The notes below the pieces were generated by a model. That model saw only the letters and a program-made list of their open reading frames with translations. It did no database searches and was not told the DNA's origin. This document shows, piece by piece, positions 21,271 to 37,631 of a stretch of 37,755 nucleotides of DNA. Each line of letters starts with the position of its first letter. Within the stretch, counting starts at the first letter, position 1. Both the position numbers and the translations under genes were made by a program. This DNA is from an uncultured Ruminococcus sp. (GTDB taxonomy: Bacteria > Bacillota > Clostridia > Oscillospirales > Ruminococcaceae). The DNA lies in assembly GCA_902780505.1 (NCBI GenBank), contig CACZFN010000019.1, forward strand, positions 1 to 37,755, read 5' to 3'.

Positions 21271-21282
21271 GGAGAATTGAAA

Positions 21283-22173
21283 ATGAATAACGCAATTGAG
21301 ATCAACGGCATTACCAAGAAATACAAGGATTTTACACTGGGTGAGATAAAAGCCGAAATACCCTGTGGTTTTGCAACGGCGCTGATCGGCGCCAACGGTG
21401 CAGGAAAGACAACACTTATTGACATTCTTTGCGGGATAACCGCAAAAAACAGCGGCGAGGCCGTTTACTTCGGGAACATGACAGACATAGACAGCACAGA
21501 GCTTAAAAACAGGATAGGCTACTGTTCTTCCGCTAACTTTCTTCCGCTTGACTGGAACCTGAAAAAGACAGCGGCAGCCTGTGAACTTGCATTTGATAAT
21601 TTCGACAGGGAAAAGTTTTCATCAATATGCCGCAGGTTCAAGCTCGGCAGCCCTGATGACAAAAAGCAGAAAAAGATAATGAAGCTTTCGGACGGCAACA
21701 AGATGCGTACCTACCTTGCGGCGGTGCTTGCAAGGGATACTGATCTTCTTGTTCTTGACGAACCTGCATCATCACTTGATCCGCTTGCCCGTGATTTGTT
21801 ATGCGACCTGTTCAGGGAGTATCTGAGTGAACGTGACGGTGAAAGGACTGTGCTGTTCTCCACCCACAACATCGCTGACATGGAATTTGCCACAGACTAC
21901 TGCATCTTCATGGCAAACGGCAAGGTCATCGAGCAGGGATTTGTTGAAGACCTGAAACAGAAATACATCCTCGTTCACGGTGATGCCGAAAACGCTGACA
22001 AGGCAAGACCGTTCATGATATCCTTCACAGGCGGCAGAACAAGCTTTGAGGGTATAGCACTTGCAGAAAACCGTGATATGCTTTCAGCATACGACACGGC
22101 CATCGAAGCGCCCACACTTCAGCAATTAAGCGTTGGTATACTAAGAAAGGCGGAGGAAGATGAAGAAAAATAA
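21283..22173 (+). CDS. ABC transporter ATP-binding protein (YtrB-like)
   Basis: A 296-aa ATPase. Walker A GANGAGKTT (near 38), signature LSDGNKMRT, Walker B LLVLDEPASSLDP and switch His in FSTHNIADME; a C-terminal extension of about 90 residues follows. The signature has LSDG rather than LSGG, common in this exporter subfamily. The ATG at 21283 has GGAG 8 bases upstream (a TTG two codons earlier is too close to it). Its end overlaps the next gene by 14 bases. Works with the two permeases downstream. Confidence 0.9.
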   Translation: MNNAIEINGITKKYKDFTLGEIKAEIPCGFATALIGANGAGKTTLIDILCGITAKNSGEAVYFGNMTDIDSTELKNRIGYCSSANFLPLDWNLKKTAAACELAFDNFDREKFSSICRRFKLGSPDDKKQKKIMKLSDGNKMRTYLAAVLARDTDLLVLDEPASSLDPLARDLLCDLFREYLSERDGERTVLFSTHNIADMEFATDYCIFMANGKVIEQGFVEDLKQKYILVHGDAENADKARPFMISFTGGRTSFEGIALAENRDMLSAYDTAIEAPTLQQLSVGILRKAEEDEEK

Positions 22174-23569: not shown

Positions 23570-23676
23570 GCATATGCCGGATAAAACTCAAAAAAAGAAG
23601 AACTGTCTGCACCCAAAGGCGTTATCTCAGGGTATTATAAGTAGGAATAAATAAAAATTATCAGGAGGTAATGATT

Positions 23677-26600
23677 ATGCCGCTGAAAACTGAAGCGCAG
23701 ATAAAAGCAGCGATCTCTGCAAAAATGAAAAGACTTTTTGACCTTGGTGATACTGTAGGTATGGCCGACCTGTTTGAGGAGGTATTTGAAAACTACCTGC
23801 CCACAGAAAAAGATGAAAATTCCAATGATATTGAGGCAAAGGCCTTAAAGGATGAATTTGCAAAGCTGTTAAGGACTGAGGACAAGAAAAAAGGTGCCAA
23901 AATGACCTTAGACCTCAGGGACGAGCTTGCAAAAAGAAAGGTCAAGCATATTATCGAAGCCTCTCCTGTACTGGATGATTATGAGGCTAAGATCAAAAAC
24001 CACGAGATCCCCGAAGCCGAAGTGTATGTCGATGACCAGAAAGCCGTTGAAAAGCTTGCCATAATAGCAACGATCGGTTCTAAGAGCTTTAATATGGTAA
24101 AGGTCGACGAATCAGCAAGCTCGATCGTAGCAAACGCTATACGTGACGTTGACATAGACGAAAACGGTAAACTGATAAATTCCGGGTTTAGTGATGCCTA
24201 TGAAGATGAACTGGCATCAAGACAATCTCTTGAAGAAGTCACCAATAAGGTCTGGGAAGACAGTGGGCTTGCGCCTGAGAAAATAGACAAAATACGCAGC
24301 AGCCTTGACCGAAATGTAGTTGATCCTATAAGCTACTATGATTTCTACTATAATGATTACTATGTAGATGGCTCACCTGTATTCAAGACAGTTTCCGAAA
24401 AATCGACACAATACCTTAACTATGAAGATGAAAGGTTTGAAAAACGGATAAGCGATATCGAGAATCAGGTCAGAAATGAAGCTGCAAGCAAGGCAAAGAA
24501 TGACACATACATAGAATACTTTGAAGCCACGCAGAAGCTTTCACAGATCCTCAAACTGCAAAAGGATCTTATAATACCTATGCGTATATCACTGATAGGT
24601 AACGCACAGCAGAAGCAAAAAGCAGAAAAACTGCTTTATGAACCGATGAGCGGCCTTATAGATCCTGACGAAATAATAAAAATGACTCCTGCCCAGTATT
24701 CCGAAAAGCTTGACGAAGCCATTGCAGGCATGGAAAAGAGCATTAAGGAACAGGAGGCTTATGCAAGCATCTCAAAAAACATTTCTAACATAAGCCATGA
24801 TATTGCAATAGATAAGATCAATGGATCAGTCGTTTCTGCTATACTTTCTGACAAACCTGTAGAAAAGATTACAAACGACACAAATCAGGCTATCGAGGAA
24901 TCACATAACAAAGACATAGAAAGTTCCAACGAAAACTTGATTTTAGCCTGCCAGAAGGATCTTCTTGATAACCTCAAGCAGTGGAACGAAAAGCTAAAGG
25001 GCTTTAATAACGAAAGCGTCAAGGAGATAAAGGACGAGCCGTTTTCTGCAAATATAGACAGAAAGTATAAGGAACGCCGTGAGTATCTTGACCAGACTGA
25101 AATAGTACCGGACTCGCTCGAATACATAAAACTAAAGGAAGAACTTGCAGAAAGAAAAAGAATAAAAAATGCCGGTGATAAGATAACGGGATATCTTGAA
25201 AGTGACCTTAAATCCATTGAAGAATATCCCTGGCTCGCCTGCACGAGCAGCCTTATAGAAGCAAAGCTTTCTGCAAACGGCGGCAGAGTTACAAAGGCAA
25301 AGGAAAATGCAATAAACGGGTTCTTCAGCAAACTTGCCGAGAAAAATTATTTTGAAAAAGGTAATGAGAAATTTATCAGTCTGCTCGGCAAAGACCTCAA
25401 TGAACGCCAGAATGAAGCAGAAAAGAGTTTTAAAAAGAAAGTGCAGGATATCAAGTCTGATATCCTTTCGGGCAAGGTGCCGGGAGTATTCCCGACAAGT
25501 GAGGAAATGGCAAGGGCTATTGCTTCTGATATAGCTTACCATACCACAGACGAAGGTAAGGTGCTCAAAGCAATACATGACACCAAAAAACAGATAATCG
25601 GAACACTTTCAAACGGCAAGGGCTGGAAATCTTATATAGCAAACCACAATGGCGATAAGACAGAAAAAGACCTGAGCACGCTGTATCATGTTCAAAAGAA
25701 TATAGGATATGAAGCCAAAAAATTCGGTTATACTGTAACAGATGATATCACAAAGCAGATACCCGGTACCGTATTTGATAAAATGCCTTATAAATTCGGC
25801 AGAATAGCAACTGCCGACAATATTGATCTTTTCAATATGCGTAACAGCTATATCGGCAAACTCAATGATATCGAGCTTTATGATTCTGTTATCGGGAACA
25901 TGACAGATTACGCCAAGAGCATACTCGAAGTCTTAAACGAAACAAACAAAAAGGATCACAAGAACTCCAAAACATACAATAAAATGGTAGGTGACCTTGA
26001 AAAGATAGCCAAACTCGGCGACAGTGAAAAGAGGCTTGAGATATCCACAGAGGAAGTAGATGCGCTGATCGGGAACCTTAAAGAATCATCTGAGGCATAT
26101 GAAAAAGAGCACACGGGTATGTTTATCGGCAAATCCAAAGGCTTTGGCAAAACAAGACTCAACGTATCAAAAACACTCAAGGCCTTTGCCGATGCTTCTG
26201 TGAACCAGCTTTCAAATCACAAGCAAATGCTTACCCCCGACAGACCGATAAAAGCACAGCGCACCGAACTGGAGCAAAGCATCAACGCCATTGACAAGAC
26301 AGCTCTTGAAAAAGGGTATGGCGCATATATCCGTAAACAAATAGATCCGCAGGTCTCTAAACTTGAAGAATTTATCAATAATGCAACCGCTCACCAGCAC
26401 GTCAAAAACGGCAGTACACATTATGATAATGCCATTCACGCCGCACATGAGCTGAAAAAAGCATTAGAGAACGGTAACGCATCCGAGATCGAAAATGCCG
26501 GCAAAACCCTTAAAGAAAGAGTCAACGACTACTTAGACTATAAGAGAAAACAAACGTTTGACGGTAAGATGCCCAATGCGAAGGGGCAGCAGAGAATAAA

Positions 26601-27336
26601 CGCCATGACAGACCTTCATCTTGCAGGCGGCTCGGCTGTGGAATATGCTAAAAATCTTGCTGCTGTGAATAAAGATAAGCAGACACTGCCTGAATATGAA
26701 AAGGCTGTCCAGCAGGAGAAGGAAAACATTATCAGAAAGACTGAACTTGAACAGCAGCAGATAGACCTTGACAATAAGGATATCTTTCAGGCACAAGTCA
26801 ATCTTAAGAAAATGGGCATTGATAAAATGATAAGCGAAAACGCAGCAATATATAACAAGCGCAATGCAAATTCTTCCATCAAAGGAATAGACAAGGTTTC
26901 GGCAGGCGCTGCATATGATGCGTTCAACACACTTTGTATATTAGGAAACTCAGGCACACTTGACAAGGAATCCATACAGGAAGCCAAGGAGAGTATTGCA
27001 CAGCTTGTTGTTGATAAAATGATCCAGCTTGACCACGGCAAGACGATCCACAAAAAACTTGGGAATATGAATGAAGAACAGGTAAAGCAGCAGTTGAGCG
27101 AAAAGGCTAAGGAACTTGCTAAAAGCCCCGCATTTGAGGCAGCTGTTCCGAAAAACATCAACTCTACATATATCAAGAAGTTCCTTGCAGATTACGAAGG
27201 CAACGGCATAATGCAGGTAAAGAATTCAATAGAAAGCTACCGTAAGGCTGTAAGAAACATAAACCAAAACGTAGAAAAAGCCACGGCAAAGAACAGCAGC
27301 AAGGTCATAGAAACAAACCTTGGCAAAAAAGTATGA
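23677..27336 (+). CDS. Large hydrophilic helical protein of unknown function (1219 aa)
   Basis: I do not recognise this protein. It is long, highly charged and Lys/Glu/Asp/Asn-rich, with no signal peptide, no membrane segment and only about three cysteines. The sequence is mostly predicted helix with several likely coiled-coil stretches (for example about 250-290, 480-500, 595-625, 1010-1035). A more ordered-looking C-terminal part includes INAMTDLHLAGGSAVEYAKN (about 985-1004). No P-loop or catalytic signature is visible; FIGKSKGFGKTR near 833 is not a Walker A motif. The ATG at 23677 is 8 bases after AGGAGG; an ATG two codons earlier is too close. It stands alone between two terminators. 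A cytoplasmic scaffold or structural role is possible but unproven. Confidence 0.8.
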   Translation: MPLKTEAQIKAAISAKMKRLFDLGDTVGMADLFEEVFENYLPTEKDENSNDIEAKALKDEFAKLLRTEDKKKGAKMTLDLRDELAKRKVKHIIEASPVLDDYEAKIKNHEIPEAEVYVDDQKAVEKLAIIATIGSKSFNMVKVDESASSIVANAIRDVDIDENGKLINSGFSDAYEDELASRQSLEEVTNKVWEDSGLAPEKIDKIRSSLDRNVVDPISYYDFYYNDYYVDGSPVFKTVSEKSTQYLNYEDERFEKRISDIENQVRNEAASKAKNDTYIEYFEATQKLSQILKLQKDLIIPMRISLIGNAQQKQKAEKLLYEPMSGLIDPDEIIKMTPAQYSEKLDEAIAGMEKSIKEQEAYASISKNISNISHDIAIDKINGSVVSAILSDKPVEKITNDTNQAIEESHNKDIESSNENLILACQKDLLDNLKQWNEKLKGFNNESVKEIKDEPFSANIDRKYKERREYLDQTEIVPDSLEYIKLKEELAERKRIKNAGDKITGYLESDLKSIEEYPWLACTSSLIEAKLSANGGRVTKAKENAINGFFSKLAEKNYFEKGNEKFISLLGKDLNERQNEAEKSFKKKVQDIKSDILSGKVPGVFPTSEEMARAIASDIAYHTTDEGKVLKAIHDTKKQIIGTLSNGKGWKSYIANHNGDKTEKDLSTLYHVQKNIGYEAKKFGYTVTDDITKQIPGTVFDKMPYKFGRIATADNIDLFNMRNSYIGKLNDIELYDSVIGNMTDYAKSILEVLNETNKKDHKNSKTYNKMVGDLEKIAKLGDSEKRLEISTEEVDALIGNLKESSEAYEKEHTGMFIGKSKGFGKTRLNVSKTLKAFADASVNQLSNHKQMLTPDRPIKAQRTELEQSINAIDKTALEKGYGAYIRKQIDPQVSKLEEFINNATAHQHVKNGSTHYDNAIHAAHELKKALENGNASEIENAGKTLKERVNDYLDYKRKQTFDGKMPNAKGQQRINAMTDLHLAGGSAVEYAKNLAAVNKDKQTLPEYEKAVQQEKENIIRKTELEQQQIDLDNKDIFQAQVNLKKMGIDKMISENAAIYNKRNANSSIKGIDKVSAGAAYDAFNTLCILGNSGTLDKESIQEAKESIAQLVVDKMIQLDHGKTIHKKLGNMNEEQVKQQLSEKAKELAKSPAFEAAVPKNINSTYIKKFLADYEGNGIMQVKNSIESYRKAVRNINQNVEKATAKNSSKVIETNLGKKV

Positions 27337-31205: not shown

Positions 31206-31892
31206 TTATATCCCGTACTTTTTCTTCACCCGTCCGAGTTTTTCACCGAATGGCTCAAAAAGCATCAGAAGAAAGATCACATTGGATGCCATATATGACA
31301 GCGTATATGGCACAGCGGAAACTATCGCGGCAGTATAAAGCCCGATATCAAAGCCTTTGTTATACCAAAGCACTGTCCATATATCCATAATAAAAGAATA
31401 CATGACTCCTGCTGCGGCGCCATAAGCTAAAAGCAGGGGTTTATTCTTTTTAAGCGGTCCTGAAAGCATACCGGCAAACAGTCCTGTAAACCCCCAGCCG
31501 AGCATCTGAAACACTGTCCACGGGCCCTGACCGAAATAAAAGTTTGAAAGCAGTGCAGCAGCAGCCCCTACAAGAAAGCCCGCTTCACTGCCGAGGTATA
31601 TACCCGAAATAATTGTAAGTGCCACTATCGGCTTTAAAAACGGGATAAATCTTCCGCCAAAGCAAAGTGCTGTCATTACCGCACAGATAACAAGCCTGCG
31701 TGTGCCGATCTTTTTCTTGTCAAAACCTGCTGCAAAAAGCACAAGTGAAAATGCCCCTGCAAAAAGTGAAACAGCAAGGTGATATTCCCTCTTTACAAAA
31801 AGTGCTGAAAGCACTGCCGCCGCAGGGATTATCATAAATGGAACGACTGTCTGTACAAAGCGCTTGATATGCTTGTTTTCTATCATTATCAT
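31206..31892 (-). CDS. ECF transporter S component (substrate-binding), probably for cobalamin
   Basis: A 228-aa membrane protein with about six helices that gives an energy-coupling-factor importer its substrate specificity. Seen: hydrophobic segments throughout and the block YFGQGPWTVFQMLGWGFTGLFAG (about 120-142), typical of one S-component group, plus a basic tail. The first residues (MIMIENKHIKR) are cytoplasmic. ATG after GGGAGGG; it starts 2 bases after the ATPase stop. Substrate is inferred from the cobalamin riboswitch at the head of the operon; whether it takes whole B12 or a precursor cannot be read from sequence. Confidence 0.82.
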   Translation of the reverse strand: MIMIENKHIKRFVQTVVPFMIIPAAAVLSALFVKREYHLAVSLFAGAFSLVLFAAGFDKKKIGTRRLVICAVMTALCFGGRFIPFLKPIVALTIISGIYLGSEAGFLVGAAAALLSNFYFGQGPWTVFQMLGWGFTGLFAGMLSGPLKKNKPLLLAYGAAAGVMYSFIMDIWTVLWYNKGFDIGLYTAAIVSAVPYTLSYMASNVIFLLMLFEPFGEKLGRVKKKYGI

Positions 31893-31894
31893 AG

Positions 31895-33517
31895 CTATGC
31901 CCTCCCGTTCCGGCGGGCGAGTGCCACAACATCCTCAACAGTAACAGCATTGTCATAATGACCGCGGGAAAGCTTGCAGGCGGCAGTCGTATAGTAACTG
32001 CTCTGTCCGAAAAACCTGTCGGGTGTCATACAGCAGACCGCCTCGCCGTTAAAGAGCATGGCACATCTGTCACCGCAAATTGCCGAGAATTCTATATCGT
32101 GTGTGACAAGAACACAGGTAATGCCATTAGCTTTAAGGCTTTTAAGTATATGCGCCGTCTTTAGTTTGAGAGCTGCGTCCATGCCTTTTGTAACTTCGTC
32201 AAGCAGCAAAAGCTTCGGCTTTGTGCCAAGTGCTTTTGCAAGGCCGAGAAGCTGCTGCTCACCGCCTGAAAGGTCATACGGGTGTTTTGACAAGTGCTGT
32301 GACAAATCAAACGGCAGTTTATCGATATCAACTCCCGATACTTCAAGTTCATCCTTTACTGTGCTTTTAATAAATGAAGTCTGTACCTCCTGCGGAAGAA
32401 GTGTCAGGCACTCTTTATAAAGACTGCGATTATTATACTCTTTAAGCTTTTTTCCAAAAACAGATATCTGCCCGCTGTATGGTCTGATAAGCCCTGCCGC
32501 AGCATTCACGGCAGTTGACTTACCGCTTCCGTTTGCGCCTAAAATGCAGAATATCTCTCCTTCATATACTTTAAGGTCAAGCCCACGAAGTATATCCGGC
32601 GTGTTTCTTTCATACCTGAAATACACATTTTTGAATTCAAGTGCTGTCCTGTCGGAATGTGTATATACGGGGCGTTCTATCTTTCTTATATCATTTTTAT
32701 AACCTGTTATCAGCCGCCTGCCCTGAGCAACTGTAAGCGGCAGTGGTGTGCTTATATCAAGTTTCCTGAACACCCTTGCAGGTGCAGGCATTGCAGGCAT
32801 AACCGGACTGTTATCATCAAGCAGCCTTATCACATCTCCCGGTTCCCCGTCATGTGTTATTATGCCATTATCCATTACAATAAGTCTGTCACAAAGCGGG
32901 ACGGTTTCTTCAAGTCTGTGCTCTGACATAAGCACCGTCACGCCCTGTTCATCACATAGCCGCCTGACAGTCATAATAAGCTCGTGTGCAGCTATCGGAT
33001 CAAGCTGTGCTGTTGGTTCATCAAGTATAAGCAGTTCGGGATCCGTCATCATAACTGATGCAAGGTTCAGCAGCTGCTTCTGCCCGCCTGAAAGAAGTGC
33101 CGTGTCACTGTCATAGATATCAGATATCCCGAAATAGCTTGCAGTTTCCGCTGCCCTGACTGATATCTGAAGCTTGTCAGCGCCCAGGCTCTCAAGTGTG
33201 AACACAAGTTCGTGCCATACTTTATCACAGACTATCTGCGCTTCAGGGCTTTGCATTACAAAGCCTATCTTTGCGACCGATTCACGCTCGTCAAGTTCAC
33301 TTTGCTCTTTGCCGCCTATAATTATACTCCCCGACCGCTTTCCTACGGGGGCAAGTTCTCTTTTCAACAGCCGCAGCAGCGTTGATTTACCGCTTCCTGT
33401 CGCCCCGCAAAGAACATTGAAACTGCCCGCTTCAAGCGAAAAGGACACGTTTTTCAGGGCTTCACTTTCAGCTTCGGGATATTCAAAACTCAGATCAACG
33501 ACTTTAAGTGCTTCCAC
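31895..33517 (-). CDS. ECF transporter fused A1-A2 ATPase
   Basis: A single 540-aa chain holding both energising ATPases. First half: Walker A GATGSGKST (near 39), signature LSGGQKQ, Walker B LLILDEPTAQLDP. Second half: Walker A GANGSGKST (near 324), LLPQEVQ Q-loop, signature LSGGEQQ, Walker B LLLLDEVTKGMD with the usual Pro replaced by Val. Fusion of the two halves is known in some ECF systems. GTG start with GGAGGT 9 bases upstream, overlapping the T-component gene by 28 bases. It should dock on the T component and drive the S component. Confidence 0.92.
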   Translation of the reverse strand: MEALKVVDLSFEYPEAESEALKNVSFSLEAGSFNVLCGATGSGKSTLLRLLKRELAPVGKRSGSIIIGGKEQSELDERESVAKIGFVMQSPEAQIVCDKVWHELVFTLESLGADKLQISVRAAETASYFGISDIYDSDTALLSGGQKQLLNLASVMMTDPELLILDEPTAQLDPIAAHELIMTVRRLCDEQGVTVLMSEHRLEETVPLCDRLIVMDNGIITHDGEPGDVIRLLDDNSPVMPAMPAPARVFRKLDISTPLPLTVAQGRRLITGYKNDIRKIERPVYTHSDRTALEFKNVYFRYERNTPDILRGLDLKVYEGEIFCILGANGSGKSTAVNAAAGLIRPYSGQISVFGKKLKEYNNRSLYKECLTLLPQEVQTSFIKSTVKDELEVSGVDIDKLPFDLSQHLSKHPYDLSGGEQQLLGLAKALGTKPKLLLLDEVTKGMDAALKLKTAHILKSLKANGITCVLVTHDIEFSAICGDRCAMLFNGEAVCCMTPDRFFGQSSYYTTAACKLSRGHYDNAVTVEDVVALARRNGRA

Positions 33518-34368
33518 CTCAGTTTCACCTCCAGACTGATAACGGCGGGCATGAATGAAAGCAGCGTAAACGCCGCAAGCCCGATAATTGTCTTAAAACC
33601 CTGAAAAGAGATCCTTACATTCGGGTAAAAGCGGTATTCAAGCCCGCCCGAAAGCGCCGAATATACAGACACCGCAAGCATACACAAAAAGGCAGACAGA
33701 AGTAAAGCATCATTCCTATCAAACTTCTTTATGCGGTAACAGCTTCGGGAAGGCAGTGAAAACCCTCTTGCTTCCATACTGTCAGCAGTGGTTATGCCGT
33801 TTTCAAGCGCCCATGTCACTATCATTGAAAACACACGCATATCGGCTTTTATATCATCGGTTATACTGTCTTCATTGTAAAGGCCAAGCGCGCGCTGGGC
33901 ATTTTTCACCTTAGCAGACTGCTTTTTAAAAAGCGGCACAAACCTTATCGACATAGATATCACAAGTGACAGCCGCTTTGATAAAAAGCTTGTTGCATAT
34001 ATAAGCTTATCACCCGTCATAACAAGTGTGAGGCAGTGGAACCAGTAAAGTGCCGCCGCTATCATAACCGAGCTGTTAAGCCCGTAAACAAGGCTTTCAA
34101 GTGTGACAGGGCGGTCATTTACAAGTACAAGCACTGTGCTGCCCTTATGTGACACAAGCGGATTAATAAGTGTAAGTATCAAGAATACTGTAATTGCAAA
34201 AATATGGAACCGCCTGCCCTTTCTGCCTTCAAGAATACACATATAGCTGACAGCCCCGAGCAGTGATATTACAAGAAGCGGCGGAAAGGCCACAAACATG
34301 GTTATACCTGTAACAAAACAAAAATACAGGAATAAAACCACAGGATTATGTTCTTCAAGTGTTTTCAG
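33490..34368 (-). CDS. ECF transporter T component (transmembrane coupling subunit)
   Basis: Couples the A1A2 ATPase to the S component; 292 aa from the start I prefer. Seen: N-terminal helices, and the coupling-helix motifs (NAQRALGLY and DSMEARGFS, an ARG motif) of EcfT. An ATG-like start is missing: the first standard start (GTG 34341) would cut off LKTLEEHNP, which matches the conserved HxP...F beginning of this EcfT group. CTG at 34368 has GGGGTG seven bases upstream and restores it, so a CTG start is likely. The gene follows the barrel/DUF4430 gene by about 25 bases. Confidence 0.85.
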   Translation of the reverse strand: MKTLEEHNPVVLFLYFCFVTGITMFVAFPPLLVISLLGAVSYMCILEGRKGRRFHIFAITVFLILTLINPLVSHKGSTVLVLVNDRPVTLESLVYGLNSSVMIAAALYWFHCLTLVMTGDKLIYATSFLSKRLSLVISMSIRFVPLFKKQSAKVKNAQRALGLYNEDSITDDIKADMRVFSMIVTWALENGITTADSMEARGFSLPSRSCYRIKKFDRNDALLLSAFLCMLAVSVYSALSGGLEYRFYPNVRISFQGFKTIIGLAAFTLLSFMPAVISLEVKLRWKHLKSLI

Positions 34369-34393
34369 CTTCCGTCACCCCTTATCTTTATTA

Positions 34394-36340
34394 TCATAAG
34401 TCATGCCCTATCTCACGTGTATAGCGCCACTCGACCTTATCGCCGTCCTGCAATACATACTGTGATGAATTAACACTCGGTGCCTTGCCGTTCACATAAT
34501 ACATCCACCCCGACAGTTCACCGAAATCATATTCATACAGCCCGCCTATTCCCGCCACATAGACCATATCGTCACTGCCCTTTATATCAAGCACAACTGA
34601 GTTTTCCTTTGCAATGCTCACAAGTGCATCATAGGCAGTTTCACCTGCTTTAAAGCTGTATTCACGCCTGTGTATAAGGTAGCCGTCCGAAGGAACAAGT
34701 TCGTTATCCTCCCCTGCAAGCACAAGGCAGTCGATACTTATGCTGACGGTTCCCGCCGTTTCAGCGTTTTGAACGCTTTCCGGGGCTTTGTAGTATTCCT
34801 CGGGCGTCTTTATTTCAAGGAAGAACGTGACCGCACAGACTGCCGCACCTGCCGCAATTATGAATATATAGCTTTTTACATTACGCTTGCCTTTTACTAA
34901 AAGAACGATTACACCTGCAAGCGTAAGCACACCTGCGCCAATGTAAATATAAACCTTTACTTTCGAGCCTGATGCAGCACCCTCTGCATGACTGCCGGCG
35001 GTTTCCGCAGTTTCTGAAAGCTGTGAAGAATAAGCGGCGGCTTCGGTGTCAGAAGGCAGTGCGCTGCTTTCTTCTCCCTGAGCTGCCGGTGTGTCGTAAG
35101 ATGTAGTTATCTCACTGTCAGTAACCTGTGTGGTGCTCTCAGAAGAAGCTTTATCTGCCGAAGATGTCCCGGCTTTTTCACTGCCTGTTTTTGAAGATGT
35201 CACTTTCCCGCCGGCGGTATCGGCAGCTGTTTTTTTCGTAGTGCGAGTCGTTGTCGTATCCTTTTCCCCTGTTGATGTGCTCACCGTTGTTTTGGAAGCT
35301 GATGATTTTTGTGAGGTAACACTTTGTGTTTTGATTTGTGTCTGCTTTGAAGTCTGTACCGAAGTCACTTTTTCACCAGTGGGCTTTTGTGCAGTTTGCG
35401 GGGCGGCTTTATCAAACAGGTAAAAGCTCCCCTTGCCGTTATAAAGACGTTCAAGCCCGCAAAGGGTATAAAAAGCCTGTGTAGTGGCACTTTCACTTAC
35501 GCCCTCGCCTTTTGAATGGCAAAAACCGCCCTCCTGAAGCCTGAAAGCTTCAAGTGCATCGATAAGTGTGTTGCCGCCCTTTATAAAGCTTTCGTCAGCG
35601 GCAGGTTCTTTTCCAAGGCAGCACAGCGCCAGTATTACCTGACAAAGGCTTTCGCAGTTGCTCACCCCGAAGCTGACATAACCGCCGTCAGGCCTTTGTA
35701 TTTCAGAAAGAAAGCTTACCGCCTTATCGCAGGCGGCTTTTACCCTGCTGCTGTTTTTGTAAAGCGGGGCAAGCGCCTGAACTGTCATTGCTGTGCAGTC
35801 AACATCGCCCTTATCGCCGATCACAGCAAAGCCACCGTCTGAAAGCTGCAAAGAAAGTATCTTTTCTGCCAGTTGTGACTGTGTATATTTATCACTTGTA
35901 TAACCGTTATTGAGTATATGGAGCCCGAACACAAGCGACATAAGTCCCTGCTCACCTATTGACGAATCTATCGCTTCATATATATACTTATCACTGCTGC
36001 CTATACTTATAAGAGCAAGGGCGTACTTTTCACGTGTAGTTGCAGACGGCACCCGGTTTTCTTTAAGATAATTAAGAAGTGCAGCTTCATACTTTGAAAA
36101 ATCATACCTTCCCGACTGTGCAAGCGCCATTATATACCATTCACTCGTAAGACCGGCGCGGCTAACAAGGGTACTGTCAATAAATCCCTGAACACTTTGA
36201 CCGTCACTCTTATACACAACGATACCGTCGAGCATCTCCCCGACGGTATCCTTATCAGCGCCGCTTGCTTCAAGCGGTGCGGTAATTACAGTTAATACAA
36301 GAATAAGCGCACACAAAAAAGCGGTCTTATTTATCTTCAT
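34394..36340 (-). CDS. Intrinsic-factor-like membrane protein: alpha/alpha-barrel plus DUF4430, probable surface cobalamin binder
   Basis: 648 aa. Order: signal peptide (1-28); an alpha/alpha-barrel of the terpenoid-cyclase/prenyltransferase-repeat type (about 30-305) with repeats such as LSLQLSDGGFAV, SEIQRPDGGYVSF and EAFRLQEGGF; a Ser/Thr-rich linker (about 310-455); two membrane helices (463-482 and 491-510) joined by KGKRNVKS; and a C-terminal DUF4430 domain (about 530-645, with ETAYDALVSIAKE, GWMYYVNG and LQDGDKVEWRYT). By the positive-inside rule both domains lie outside the cell. Barrel plus DUF4430 is the domain plan of animal intrinsic factor and transcobalamin. It starts inside the preceding gene (14-base overlap) without a clear ribosome site, so translation is probably coupled. 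Binding of B12 is inference. Confidence 0.85.
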   Translation of the reverse strand: MKINKTAFLCALILVLTVITAPLEASGADKDTVGEMLDGIVVYKSDGQSVQGFIDSTLVSRAGLTSEWYIMALAQSGRYDFSKYEAALLNYLKENRVPSATTREKYALALISIGSSDKYIYEAIDSSIGEQGLMSLVFGLHILNNGYTSDKYTQSQLAEKILSLQLSDGGFAVIGDKGDVDCTAMTVQALAPLYKNSSRVKAACDKAVSFLSEIQRPDGGYVSFGVSNCESLCQVILALCCLGKEPAADESFIKGGNTLIDALEAFRLQEGGFCHSKGEGVSESATTQAFYTLCGLERLYNGKGSFYLFDKAAPQTAQKPTGEKVTSVQTSKQTQIKTQSVTSQKSSASKTTVSTSTGEKDTTTTRTTKKTAADTAGGKVTSSKTGSEKAGTSSADKASSESTTQVTDSEITTSYDTPAAQGEESSALPSDTEAAAYSSQLSETAETAGSHAEGAASGSKVKVYIYIGAGVLTLAGVIVLLVKGKRNVKSYIFIIAAGAAVCAVTFFLEIKTPEEYYKAPESVQNAETAGTVSISIDCLVLAGEDNELVPSDGYLIHRREYSFKAGETAYDALVSIAKENSVVLDIKGSDDMVYVAGIGGLYEYDFGELSGWMYYVNGKAPSVNSSQYVLQDGDKVEWRYTREIGHDL

Positions 36341-37316
36341 GTTTTTTAAATACTACAGCGCCTGTGCCGGCAAGTGCAATAACCCCAAACAGAACGCTTG
36401 AACACATATCGCCTGTCTTAGGAGCTTCAGGGGTTTTGCCCTGCGGCTCGGGCTGCTTTTCAGGCTCGGGATTATTCTCGGGTTCAGGCTTGTTTTCGGG
36501 CTCGGGCTTATTCTCAGGCTCGGGCTTGGTTTCGGGTTCGGGTGTTTTCTCAGGTTCAGGCTCAACCACAGGCTGCTCCTCAGTCTTTGAAACTGTAACT
36601 GCGCATACTGCGGGTGTGATTATACTGCTTTCGGAAACAGCACTTACAACATAATCCCCTGCTTTATCAAAGGTAAGCTCTGCCTTGCCGTTCTCGTCTG
36701 TCTTGATCTCCGTCTTTTCGCCGTTTATAGTAATAACGGCATCTTTCAGGGGGGTGTTTACAGCGTTGTAGTTTGCATCAAATCCAACAACGTTTAATGT
36801 AAGCGCAAGCTTGCCGTCTGCGTCCTCTTTGTCAAGGTCTATCTCGCTTTCCTTTACATCAAAGAAACTGTACTTATCACTGAAGCCCGCCGCATCCTTG
36901 AAAACATATGCATAAAGGTCGTCGCCGTTCTTGAGTTCATCAAAAAGCCCCATAGACATCTTGTCGTTTACATAATAGCCATAGCTGCCGCCGTTCTGTA
37001 CGCCCCAGAAAGTATCAATGGATAAGCCCCATTCAGATTCCACAGCTTTGAAGCCCGCTTCGGCACCGCCTTCAAAAAATTCATCATGTGTTATCACAAA
37101 CGCATCATAGATCGTAAGCTTGCCGTCTTTATCAACATCTGTAAGCTTGATATCCTCCCTTGTCACCACAAGCTCACCTGCATTTGAAACAGTAACAGTA
37201 ACTTCAGCCTCCCCGCTGCTTTGAGCTTCATCATCAGCTGCAAATGCTGTCACTGCGGACATTCCCATTGCAAGTATTGCCGCCGTAAGTGCACAAAGTG
37301 TTTTCTTCATCTTCAT
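36327..37316 (-). CDS. Cell-wall-anchored DUF4430-like surface protein, probable cobalamin-binding partner
   Basis: 329 aa. Signal peptide (1-27, cleavage near AFA-AD); a DUF4430-like domain (about 36-148) containing an EF-hand-like loop DVDKDGKLTIYD (60-71) and GGSYGYYVNDKMS; a second beta-sandwich (about 165-243, DAVITINGEKTEIKTDENGK); a wall-spanning region of KPEPEN-type repeats (249-296); and a sorting signal APKTG (298-302) with a hydrophobic helix and a KKHEDK tail. The sorting motif has Ala for Leu, a variant of LPXTG; no sortase gene is in the window. First gene of the cobalamin-riboswitch operon, ATG after AAAGGAAG. I infer that it captures B12 at the wall and passes it to the membrane protein and importer. 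Confidence 0.85.
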   Translation of the reverse strand: MKMKKTLCALTAAILAMGMSAVTAFAADDEAQSSGEAEVTVTVSNAGELVVTREDIKLTDVDKDGKLTIYDAFVITHDEFFEGGAEAGFKAVESEWGLSIDTFWGVQNGGSYGYYVNDKMSMGLFDELKNGDDLYAYVFKDAAGFSDKYSFFDVKESEIDLDKEDADGKLALTLNVVGFDANYNAVNTPLKDAVITINGEKTEIKTDENGKAELTFDKAGDYVVSAVSESSIITPAVCAVTVSKTEEQPVVEPEPEKTPEPETKPEPENKPEPENKPEPENNPEPEKQPEPQGKTPEAPKTGDMCSSVLFGVIALAGTGAVVFKKHEDK

Positions 37317-37345
37317 TTTACATCTTCCTTTCTATATTTCGGGTA

Positions 37346-37386
37346 AATAAAAAGCACCCCAAAAGGCTTTCACCTTTTAAAGAGCG
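37346..37386 (-). terminator. Terminator of the cobalamin riboswitch
   Basis: On the minus strand GCTCTTTAAAAGG pairs with CCTTTTGGGGTGC (several G-T pairs, one mismatch), loop TGAAAG, followed by TTTTTATTT. It lies 30 bases before the first start codon, where a B12-dependent OFF switch is expected. Confidence 0.75.
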
Positions 37387-37424
37387 CACTAACAAAAGCC
37401 CTGTCGGGAAGCTGTTTTTAAAAC

Positions 37425-37592
37425 ACCCGCCAAAGCGATCATAAGCCGCGCTTTTCATATGCCCAAAAGCTGACTGTGAGTATAACACACCCCGACGAGC
37501 GATCCGACTGTAACGGTAGTGACTGCTGCGGCAGATTTTCACTGCACTTCTCTCCTGCTTTGGCAAAGCCAATTCTTCGGGGGGCTTTTAAT
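37425..37592 (-). promoter_or_regulatory. Cobalamin (B12) riboswitch
   Basis: The minus-strand leader contains the conserved core of the cobalamin RNA: AGAGAAGTGCAGTGAAAATC, then CTGCCGCAGCAGTCACTACCG and TTACAGTCGGAT, matching the pattern GGAA..GGTG..AATCC..C.GC...CACT. It is preceded by the P2-side segment and followed by GTCAGC. Promoter, aptamer, terminator and start codon are in order over about 280 bases. It should shut off the five-gene operon when cobalamin is plentiful and so ties the DUF4430 and ECF genes to B12. Exact boundaries are approximate. Confidence 0.85.
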
Positions 37593-37602
37593 AGTCAAAT
37601 CA

Positions 37603-37631
37603 AGTATACCACTTTGATAGAGTTTTGTCAA
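37603..37631 (-). promoter_or_regulatory. Promoter of the cobalamin-uptake operon
   Basis: On the minus strand TTGACA (37626-37631), a 17-base spacer and TATACT (37603-37608). Transcription would start near 37596, just ahead of the riboswitch. Confidence 0.85.

Follow-up and report, generated by a model that had tools for sequence, protein, structure and literature searches.

A riboswitch-controlled operon in an uncultured Ruminococcus with candidate surface corrinoid-capture proteins and a CbrT-like importer

A five-gene operon and its leader

The stretch of DNA analysed here (37,755 nucleotides, hereafter the window) is the entire contig CACZFN010000019.1 (C19) of a 2.8-Mb genome from an uncultured Ruminococcus sp. 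(GCA_902780505.1; G000), which is 98.6% complete. From position 37631 to 31206, its minus strand carries a promoter, a class-II cobalamin riboswitch and a terminator-like hairpin, followed by five genes that overlap or stand closely spaced among the open reading frames of the window. The near-consensus promoter (TTGACA-17-TATACT; 37603..37631) precedes an aptamer of the adenosylcobalamin-II (AdoCbl-II) type (37485..37585), composed of the Rfam match, a closing stem and an extra upstream hairpin, and an intrinsic-terminator-like hairpin with a T run (37357..37382) that is the probable expression platform. The first gene (WALL; 36327..37316) encodes a probable wall protein with a signal peptide and an anchor-like tail, and the second (TORO; 34394..36340) a membrane protein combining an alpha/alpha toroid (PF00432, 30.5 bits) with a DUF4430 domain (PF14478, 57.8 bits against a curated cut-off of 23.8). 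The remaining three encode an energy-coupling factor (ECF) importer, namely the transmembrane subunit EcfT of the CbiQ family (33490..34341; PF02361, 29.7 bits), a fused EcfA1-EcfA2 double ATPase with two ABC_tran stretches (31895..33517), and a CbrT-like S-component, the substrate-specific subunit (31206..31892; PF07155, 28.2 bits; PF20221, 28.6 bits). An earlier, sequence-only reading had proposed this layout, which was borne out by Rfam, Pfam and the leader comparison. The identical five-gene order was found in 11 of 24 neighbourhoods (L002, L003, L038, L040, L041, L043, L044, L045, L049, L050 and L051); the nearest named relative of the TORO gene found is that of a Ruminococcus metagenome-assembled genome from deer rumen (L002). 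The operon most probably serves corrinoid acquisition, joining riboswitch-controlled surface capture to CbrT-like ECF import in a bacterium that uses vitamin B12 and shows no sign of producing it.

Covariance-model searches identified the predicted cobalamin riboswitch as RF01689 (AdoCbl-II), at 37569-37489 on the minus strand; with 37.4 bits (E 1.8e-5 for the window) it narrowly exceeds the gathering score, which is 36.5. The same family was matched in two relatives (37.8 bits in L002 and 56.7 bits in L004), and a split-type operon, with toroid and DUF4430/SLBB domains in separate genes (L005), carries the classical RF00174 at 89.1 bits. A covariance model built from six leaders, that of the window among them, and run on fetched loci only (R1) matched the leaders of operons outside its building set, including L003 (E 8e-9), L043, L050 and L040 (2e-5), as well as 10 of 20 further loci chosen by their wall domain (E below 1e-6). 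Among 20 leaders, changes on both sides were observed in all six pairs of the closing helix and all four pairs of the second helix, with a covariation score of 0.514, compared with 0.181 in shuffles and no more than 0.130 when the partners were slid, in an alignment that was fitted to R1 and is thus biased in favour of covariation. Pairing is weaker in the two inner helices, where 65.8% and 82.5% of the cells are paired. Based on the L004 score and on aptamer covariation, the riboswitch assignment is supported, narrow as its score in the window is. No second cobalamin riboswitch was found in the genome by either Rfam model, so that the one in the operon leader is the only one detected. The leaders also share their flanking signals, with a promoter of 11-12 of 12 letters (best match within 90 bases upstream; no shuffled control) in seven of eight relatives, the exception being L003, and a hairpin with a T run 96-143 bases past the aptamer in all nine leaders compared (likewise without a shuffled control). 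With a z of -0.6 against shuffled sequences, the leader's folding energy was unremarkable and was dropped as evidence. The aptamer's closing stem and a variable hairpin (37570-37585, minus strand) extend past the 81-nt Rfam match on its upstream side. Both show covariation in relatives, so that the Rfam model may not span the whole aptamer of this clade.

As for other ligands, searches of the window and 33 fetched loci against all Rfam families revealed no non-cobalamin riboswitch above cut-off; 11 further fetched neighbourhoods were scanned for cobalamin riboswitches only.

The importer and the toroid protein

The B12-type importer suggested by the sequence-only reading found support in the S-component, whose sole PDB match below E 0.1 was 6fnp_A (E 1.4e-7, residues 59-227; next match 0.68). 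This entry is the ECF-CbrT complex of Lactobacillus delbrueckii, for which transport of cobalamin and cobinamide has been reported (PMC5997447). NCBIfam searches returned only a folate S-component family, at 20.4 against a cut-off of 60. Homology to CbrT thus supports an S-component of the vitamin-B12 type, and the two systems would share ECF-type cobalamin import. They differ in setting, since CbrT lies in an nrdJ-cbrS-cbrT-pduO cluster (PMC5997447), whereas here the ECF module shares its operon with two surface proteins.

Kinship with CbrT bears on two other possible cargoes. The operon could encode an importer of cobalt or another metal under B12 control (CbiQ/CbiO), with surface proteins that bind metal: EcfT matches CbiQ, annotated as a "cobalt transport protein", and cobalt transporters are also found under B12 riboswitches (PMC3766115). 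This is very improbable, given that CbrT is the PDB match of the S gene, that the genome has no CbiD and thus no evident use of cobalt for corrin making, and that the pairing of toroid and DUF4430 points to corrinoids. It is also conceivable, while rather unlikely, that incomplete corrinoids such as cobinamide, or cobamides other than B12, are captured and that the surface proteins select among them. The characterised CbrT accepts cobinamide besides cobalamin (PMC5997447), and a module at the surface would lend itself to filtering by selectivity; the genome has no CobS, the one salvage marker tested, which makes the completion of cobinamide look unlikely.

ECF importers are not known to require an extracellular binding protein. 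The proposal that the two surface proteins replace the usual lipoprotein was misframed, because in ECF importers the S-component is itself the substrate-binding subunit, as described in the CbrT study (PMC5997447); in surface capture followed by CbrT-like import, these proteins are an addition.

TORO consists of an N-terminal signal peptide, an alpha/alpha toroid (residues about 30-303), a Ser/Thr-rich linker, a transmembrane hairpin (463-481 and 492-510) and a DUF4430/SLBB domain (566-641). According to a simple hydropathy scan, the two predicted membrane segments between toroid and SLBB place both domains outside the cell. Besides TORO itself, this hairpin occurs in all 16 homologues that have the toroid followed by SLBB in one frame. 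In other relatives, toroid and SLBB are encoded by separate neighbouring genes, with a membrane segment in each of the two frames (L052, L054 and L055) or in the SLBB frame only (L005), and in L053, L056 and L057 an additional SLBB is fused N-terminally to the toroid while a separate SLBB frame follows. In the first set of loci, window included, DUF4430/SLBB was found in the same or a neighbouring frame in all 25 toroid-bearing loci. The occurrence of fused and split versions of the toroid, the SLBB and the wall domain described below argues that these parts work together. In a genome of the same genus (G192:C35:72072-73932), the TORO gene is split into two frames, the break falling at the linker.

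The expected likeness to transcobalamin and intrinsic factor was found for TORO by a small margin. In the AlphaFold2 model a helical barrel is followed by a linker of low confidence, by helices where the hairpin is predicted and by an end rich in beta structure, with ten-residue mean confidence scores (predicted local distance difference test, pLDDT) of 74-97 in the toroid. Foldseek ranked transcobalamin entries 1-11 in the PDB (E 1.6e-5 to 1.6e-4) and human intrinsic factor 39, and the transcobalamin alignments span 625-664 columns for a model of 648 residues, so that they presumably cover both domains in the same order. Several observations weigh against this resemblance. The model is thin (five sequences, mean pLDDT 64.5), and rank 12 was already a terpene cyclase, at E 1.7e-4. 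TM-scores with transcobalamin were low (0.25-0.32 by query and 0.37-0.48 by target), with root-mean-square deviations of 10.3-15.4, as would be expected if a model positions two domains arbitrarily. Terpene cyclases are also the toroid's nearest relatives by sequence in the PDB, where searches with the SLBB and TORO profiles recovered no transcobalamin, intrinsic factor or other B12 binder, and the toroid alone (residues 22-303, VIA-align 2) superposes well on terpene cyclases, sugar epimerases and other barrels. Transcobalamin was not among the 50 VIA-align 2 matches listed, which by the tool's own note excludes nothing. PF01122, the eukaryotic cobalamin-binding protein family, was not among the five Pfam matches of TORO at E<=1. 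Since the toroid is nearest to terpene cyclases by sequence, it is the domain pair, rather than the barrel alone, that points to transcobalamin.

These similarities raise the question of whether TORO is a secreted or membrane enzyme with a cyclase-like or epimerase-like barrel instead of a binder, and both the sequence neighbours and the superpositions just described would suit such a role. We regard it as highly unlikely, given the DUF4430/SLBB that accompanies the toroid throughout the first set, the cobalamin riboswitch and importer adjoining TORO, and the use of the same alpha/alpha barrel by transcobalamin (PMC1796856). A second set of loci, two of which (L069 and L081) end at contig ends, includes one exception to this pairing, L083, where the toroid stands without a detected SLBB, a point that also counts against a binder built from the domain pair.

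Animal transcobalamin and intrinsic factor are soluble carriers. TORO differs from them by its predicted membrane hairpin between the domains and by the importer encoded alongside, and shows no sequence match to them. The likeness lies in the toroid followed by a beta-grasp domain, in identical order (PMC1796856), and fish transcobalamin-like proteins have been described with a DUF4430 domain, as has transcobalamin (PMC4350170).

The wall domain, co-occurrence and vitamin B12 need

The sequence-only reading had described both surface proteins as DUF4430-like, which held for TORO and not for WALL: PF14478 was unmatched at E<=10 in all four WALL members, even as it does match some first-gene proteins of split operons (e.g. 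in G229 and G162). The N-terminal domain of WALL (residues about 27-155; window 36852-37238, minus strand) has no Pfam or NCBIfam match. It was found to be conserved, with 19 invariant columns across 14 sequences, and contains a loop of the form D-x-D-x-D-G-x-x-T-x-x-[DE] in 28 of 35 domains; the other seven domains retain D-x-D-x-[DN]-[GN] and a D or E at position 12, comparable to the EF-hand calcium loop. This EF-hand-like loop may bind calcium. Global hhalign of the WALL and SLBB domains gave a score of 20.6, where none of 30 column-shuffled controls exceeded 7.0, with a probability of only 12%, and the control is lenient because column shuffling also destroys local order. Local hhalign of the same pair returned nothing of weight, and no similarity, global or local, was found between WALL and the first-gene SLBB domains of split operons. 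At best, the WALL domain might be considered remotely DUF4430-like. Structure prediction was uninformative for WALL (poor AlphaFold2 model, mean pLDDT 48.5, four sequences), and PDB sequence searches with WALL profiles found no B12 binder.

Downstream of this domain, WALL displays an immunoglobulin/CarboxypepD-like stretch (below cut-offs), a Pro-Glu repeat and a PKTG-hydrophobic-KK tail. The supposed anchoring of the protein to the wall is supported in part. The protein of a relative (L003) closes with LPNTG followed by a hydrophobic segment and charged residues, and a sortase gene is present in the genome; the anchor signal of WALL itself falls under the curated cut-offs (PF00746, 13.0 vs 20; TIGR03063, 15.4 vs 18.15), and another relative (L004) has no LPNTG-hydrophobic-charged tail.

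The wall domain was detected in 37 of 295 genomes of the order, representing 25 of 149 genera. With G000 and G019 set aside, 35 matching genomes remain, and 20 loci from 20 of these were picked with the wall domain as the sole criterion. A toroid or SLBB was found beside the wall domain in 18 of these 20 loci and matches to both EcfT and the S-component in 14, and 12 have a cobalamin riboswitch upstream in the same orientation, of which R1 found 10 and Rfam two (L084 and L087). The wall genes of L070 and L076 lie under an R1 riboswitch with no toroid, SLBB, EcfT or S match in the fetched stretch, L076 carrying a further two ABC ATPase frames on the other strand, and L086 has an SLBB without a detected toroid. 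Multi-domain relatives were seen as well: a single protein with two wall domains (L085, 6121-8352), and the toroid, wall domain and SLBB in a single protein (L087, 5107-7938).

Co-occurrence was further surveyed in 30 genomes, the present one included, which are the best-scoring of 78 with a TORO-like match among 247, minus G072. Some cobalamin riboswitch was detected in 28 of them, G055 and G065 being without any, and 22 of the 37 riboswitches lie upstream of a DUF4430 or toroid gene, on the same strand and no more than 8 kb away. Riboswitches so placed were found in 20 of the 30 genomes. In this count, two riboswitches matched by both Rfam models were counted once and five toroid places were added to the DUF4430 places. 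For the sites in G192 and G108 and for one of the C34 sites in G222, no Rfam model that detected them gave a score above its cut-off; those in G192 and G108 were counted as beside such a gene. CbiD, searched for in 18 of the 30 genomes, is present in four (G028, G019, G096 and G188), three of which have an RF00174 riboswitch on the same contig as CbiD. A riboswitch beside a DUF4430 or toroid gene occurs in 12 of the 14 genomes without CbiD and in none of the four with it, or in one of the four once the R1 hit at L040 (G019) is included.

The source genome contains a MetH-like protein, with S-methyl_trans, Pterin_bind and both B12-binding families matched in the 621 fetched residues of an 820-residue frame. 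Neither of the two synthesis markers tested, CbiD and CobS, was matched. From these gene contents, the bacterium would use B12 and shows no sign of synthesising it. Neither cobalamin adenosyltransferase family tested (PF01923 and PF02572) was matched in this genome, which nevertheless has the MetH-like gene. With no evident adenosyltransferase, the ligand sensed by the riboswitch may not be AdoCbl but another cobalamin, and class-II riboswitches preferring other cobalamins are known.

Corrinoid capture as the proposed role

That the operon acquires corrinoids rests on features established by computation (the riboswitch, gene order, domain content, predicted topology, S-component kinship, co-occurrence and marker absence), from which we infer that the surface proteins bind corrinoids and hand them to the importer. 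To the structural reservations raised above must be added several distributional ones. The S gene stands alone after TORO in L039 and L042, and EcfT and S genes were not seen within the fetched stretch in L048 and L055. Eight of the 20 wall-domain loci, some of them at contig ends, show no cobalamin riboswitch, and 10 of the 30 surveyed genomes have no Rfam cobalamin riboswitch beside a DUF4430 or toroid gene. In some of the positive genomes (e.g. G197, G037 and G168), the riboswitch adjoins a lone DUF4430 gene on a contig that differs from that of the toroid operon.

Judging from the anatomy of the leader, low intracellular cobalamin would cause the class-II riboswitch to let transcription read through the terminator. 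WALL, anchored to the wall, and TORO, tethered by its membrane hairpin, would then be displayed outside the cell, where the toroid and beta-grasp domains may close on cobalamin as they do in transcobalamin, a step suggested by domain order and fold. The vitamin would subsequently reach the CbrT-like S-component and be imported by the operon's own EcfT-EcfA1A2 module. A more elaborate version, which we put forward tentatively and consider somewhat doubtful, is a three-part relay in which the unnamed and possibly calcium-binding wall domain takes the corrinoid at the outer wall, passes it to the hairpin clamp formed by the closing toroid and beta-grasp domains, and from there to the CbrT-like S-component, this relay being a common entry route for corrinoids in gut and rumen Clostridia.

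The core idea, B12 scavenging by surface toroid and SLBB proteins encoded with CbiO/CbiQ, was already published in 2007. Burroughs et al. described bacterial surface proteins of this kind, some with Gram-positive anchors, together with a second paralogous surface protein in the operon and CbiO/CbiQ-like neighbours; noting that their hosts usually lack B12 synthesis, they predicted B12 scavenging as a likely role (PMC1796856). The present operon resembles these systems by its surface toroid and SLBB, its CbiO/CbiQ-like genes and a host without the tested B12 synthesis markers. The words riboswitch and ECF are absent from the main text of that article (PMC1796856), and its description, in the part available, includes neither CbrT nor a hairpin tether, both of which occur here; WALL also differs in not being a recognisable Pfam DUF4430 member. 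The present analysis adds the control by a riboswitch, the CbrT-like identity of the S-component, the hairpin tether along with its fused and split versions, and an unnamed wall domain found across the order. A literature search, whose coverage left out most subscription journals and all bioRxiv preprints, found no experimental B12-binding study of bacterial toroid and DUF4430 proteins.

Capture of corrinoids at the surface ahead of an importer is also the role of BtuG and BtuH in Bacteroides (PMC8941943). In BtuH2, binding occurs via a C-terminal domain that is globular and bears little resemblance to known structures (PMC8941943), and WALL gave no sequence match at E<=10 to BtuG/BtuH-type chains in the PDB. 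How corrinoids reach the membrane importers of Firmicutes is, according to the same source, little known (PMC8941943). A compact five-gene operon under a single riboswitch makes the 2007 prediction directly testable and bears on the competition for B12 in gut and rumen. It also bears on the origin of animal intrinsic factor and transcobalamin, because a lateral transfer from Gram-positive bacteria to animals has been proposed (PMC1796856).

Elsewhere in the window, a 1221-aa open frame (23671-27336, plus strand) without a Pfam match at E<=1e-5 lies downstream of an ABC ATPase frame (21277-22173), and the minus strand encodes a prepilin-like protein with the N-terminal methylation motif PF07963 (28275-28949).

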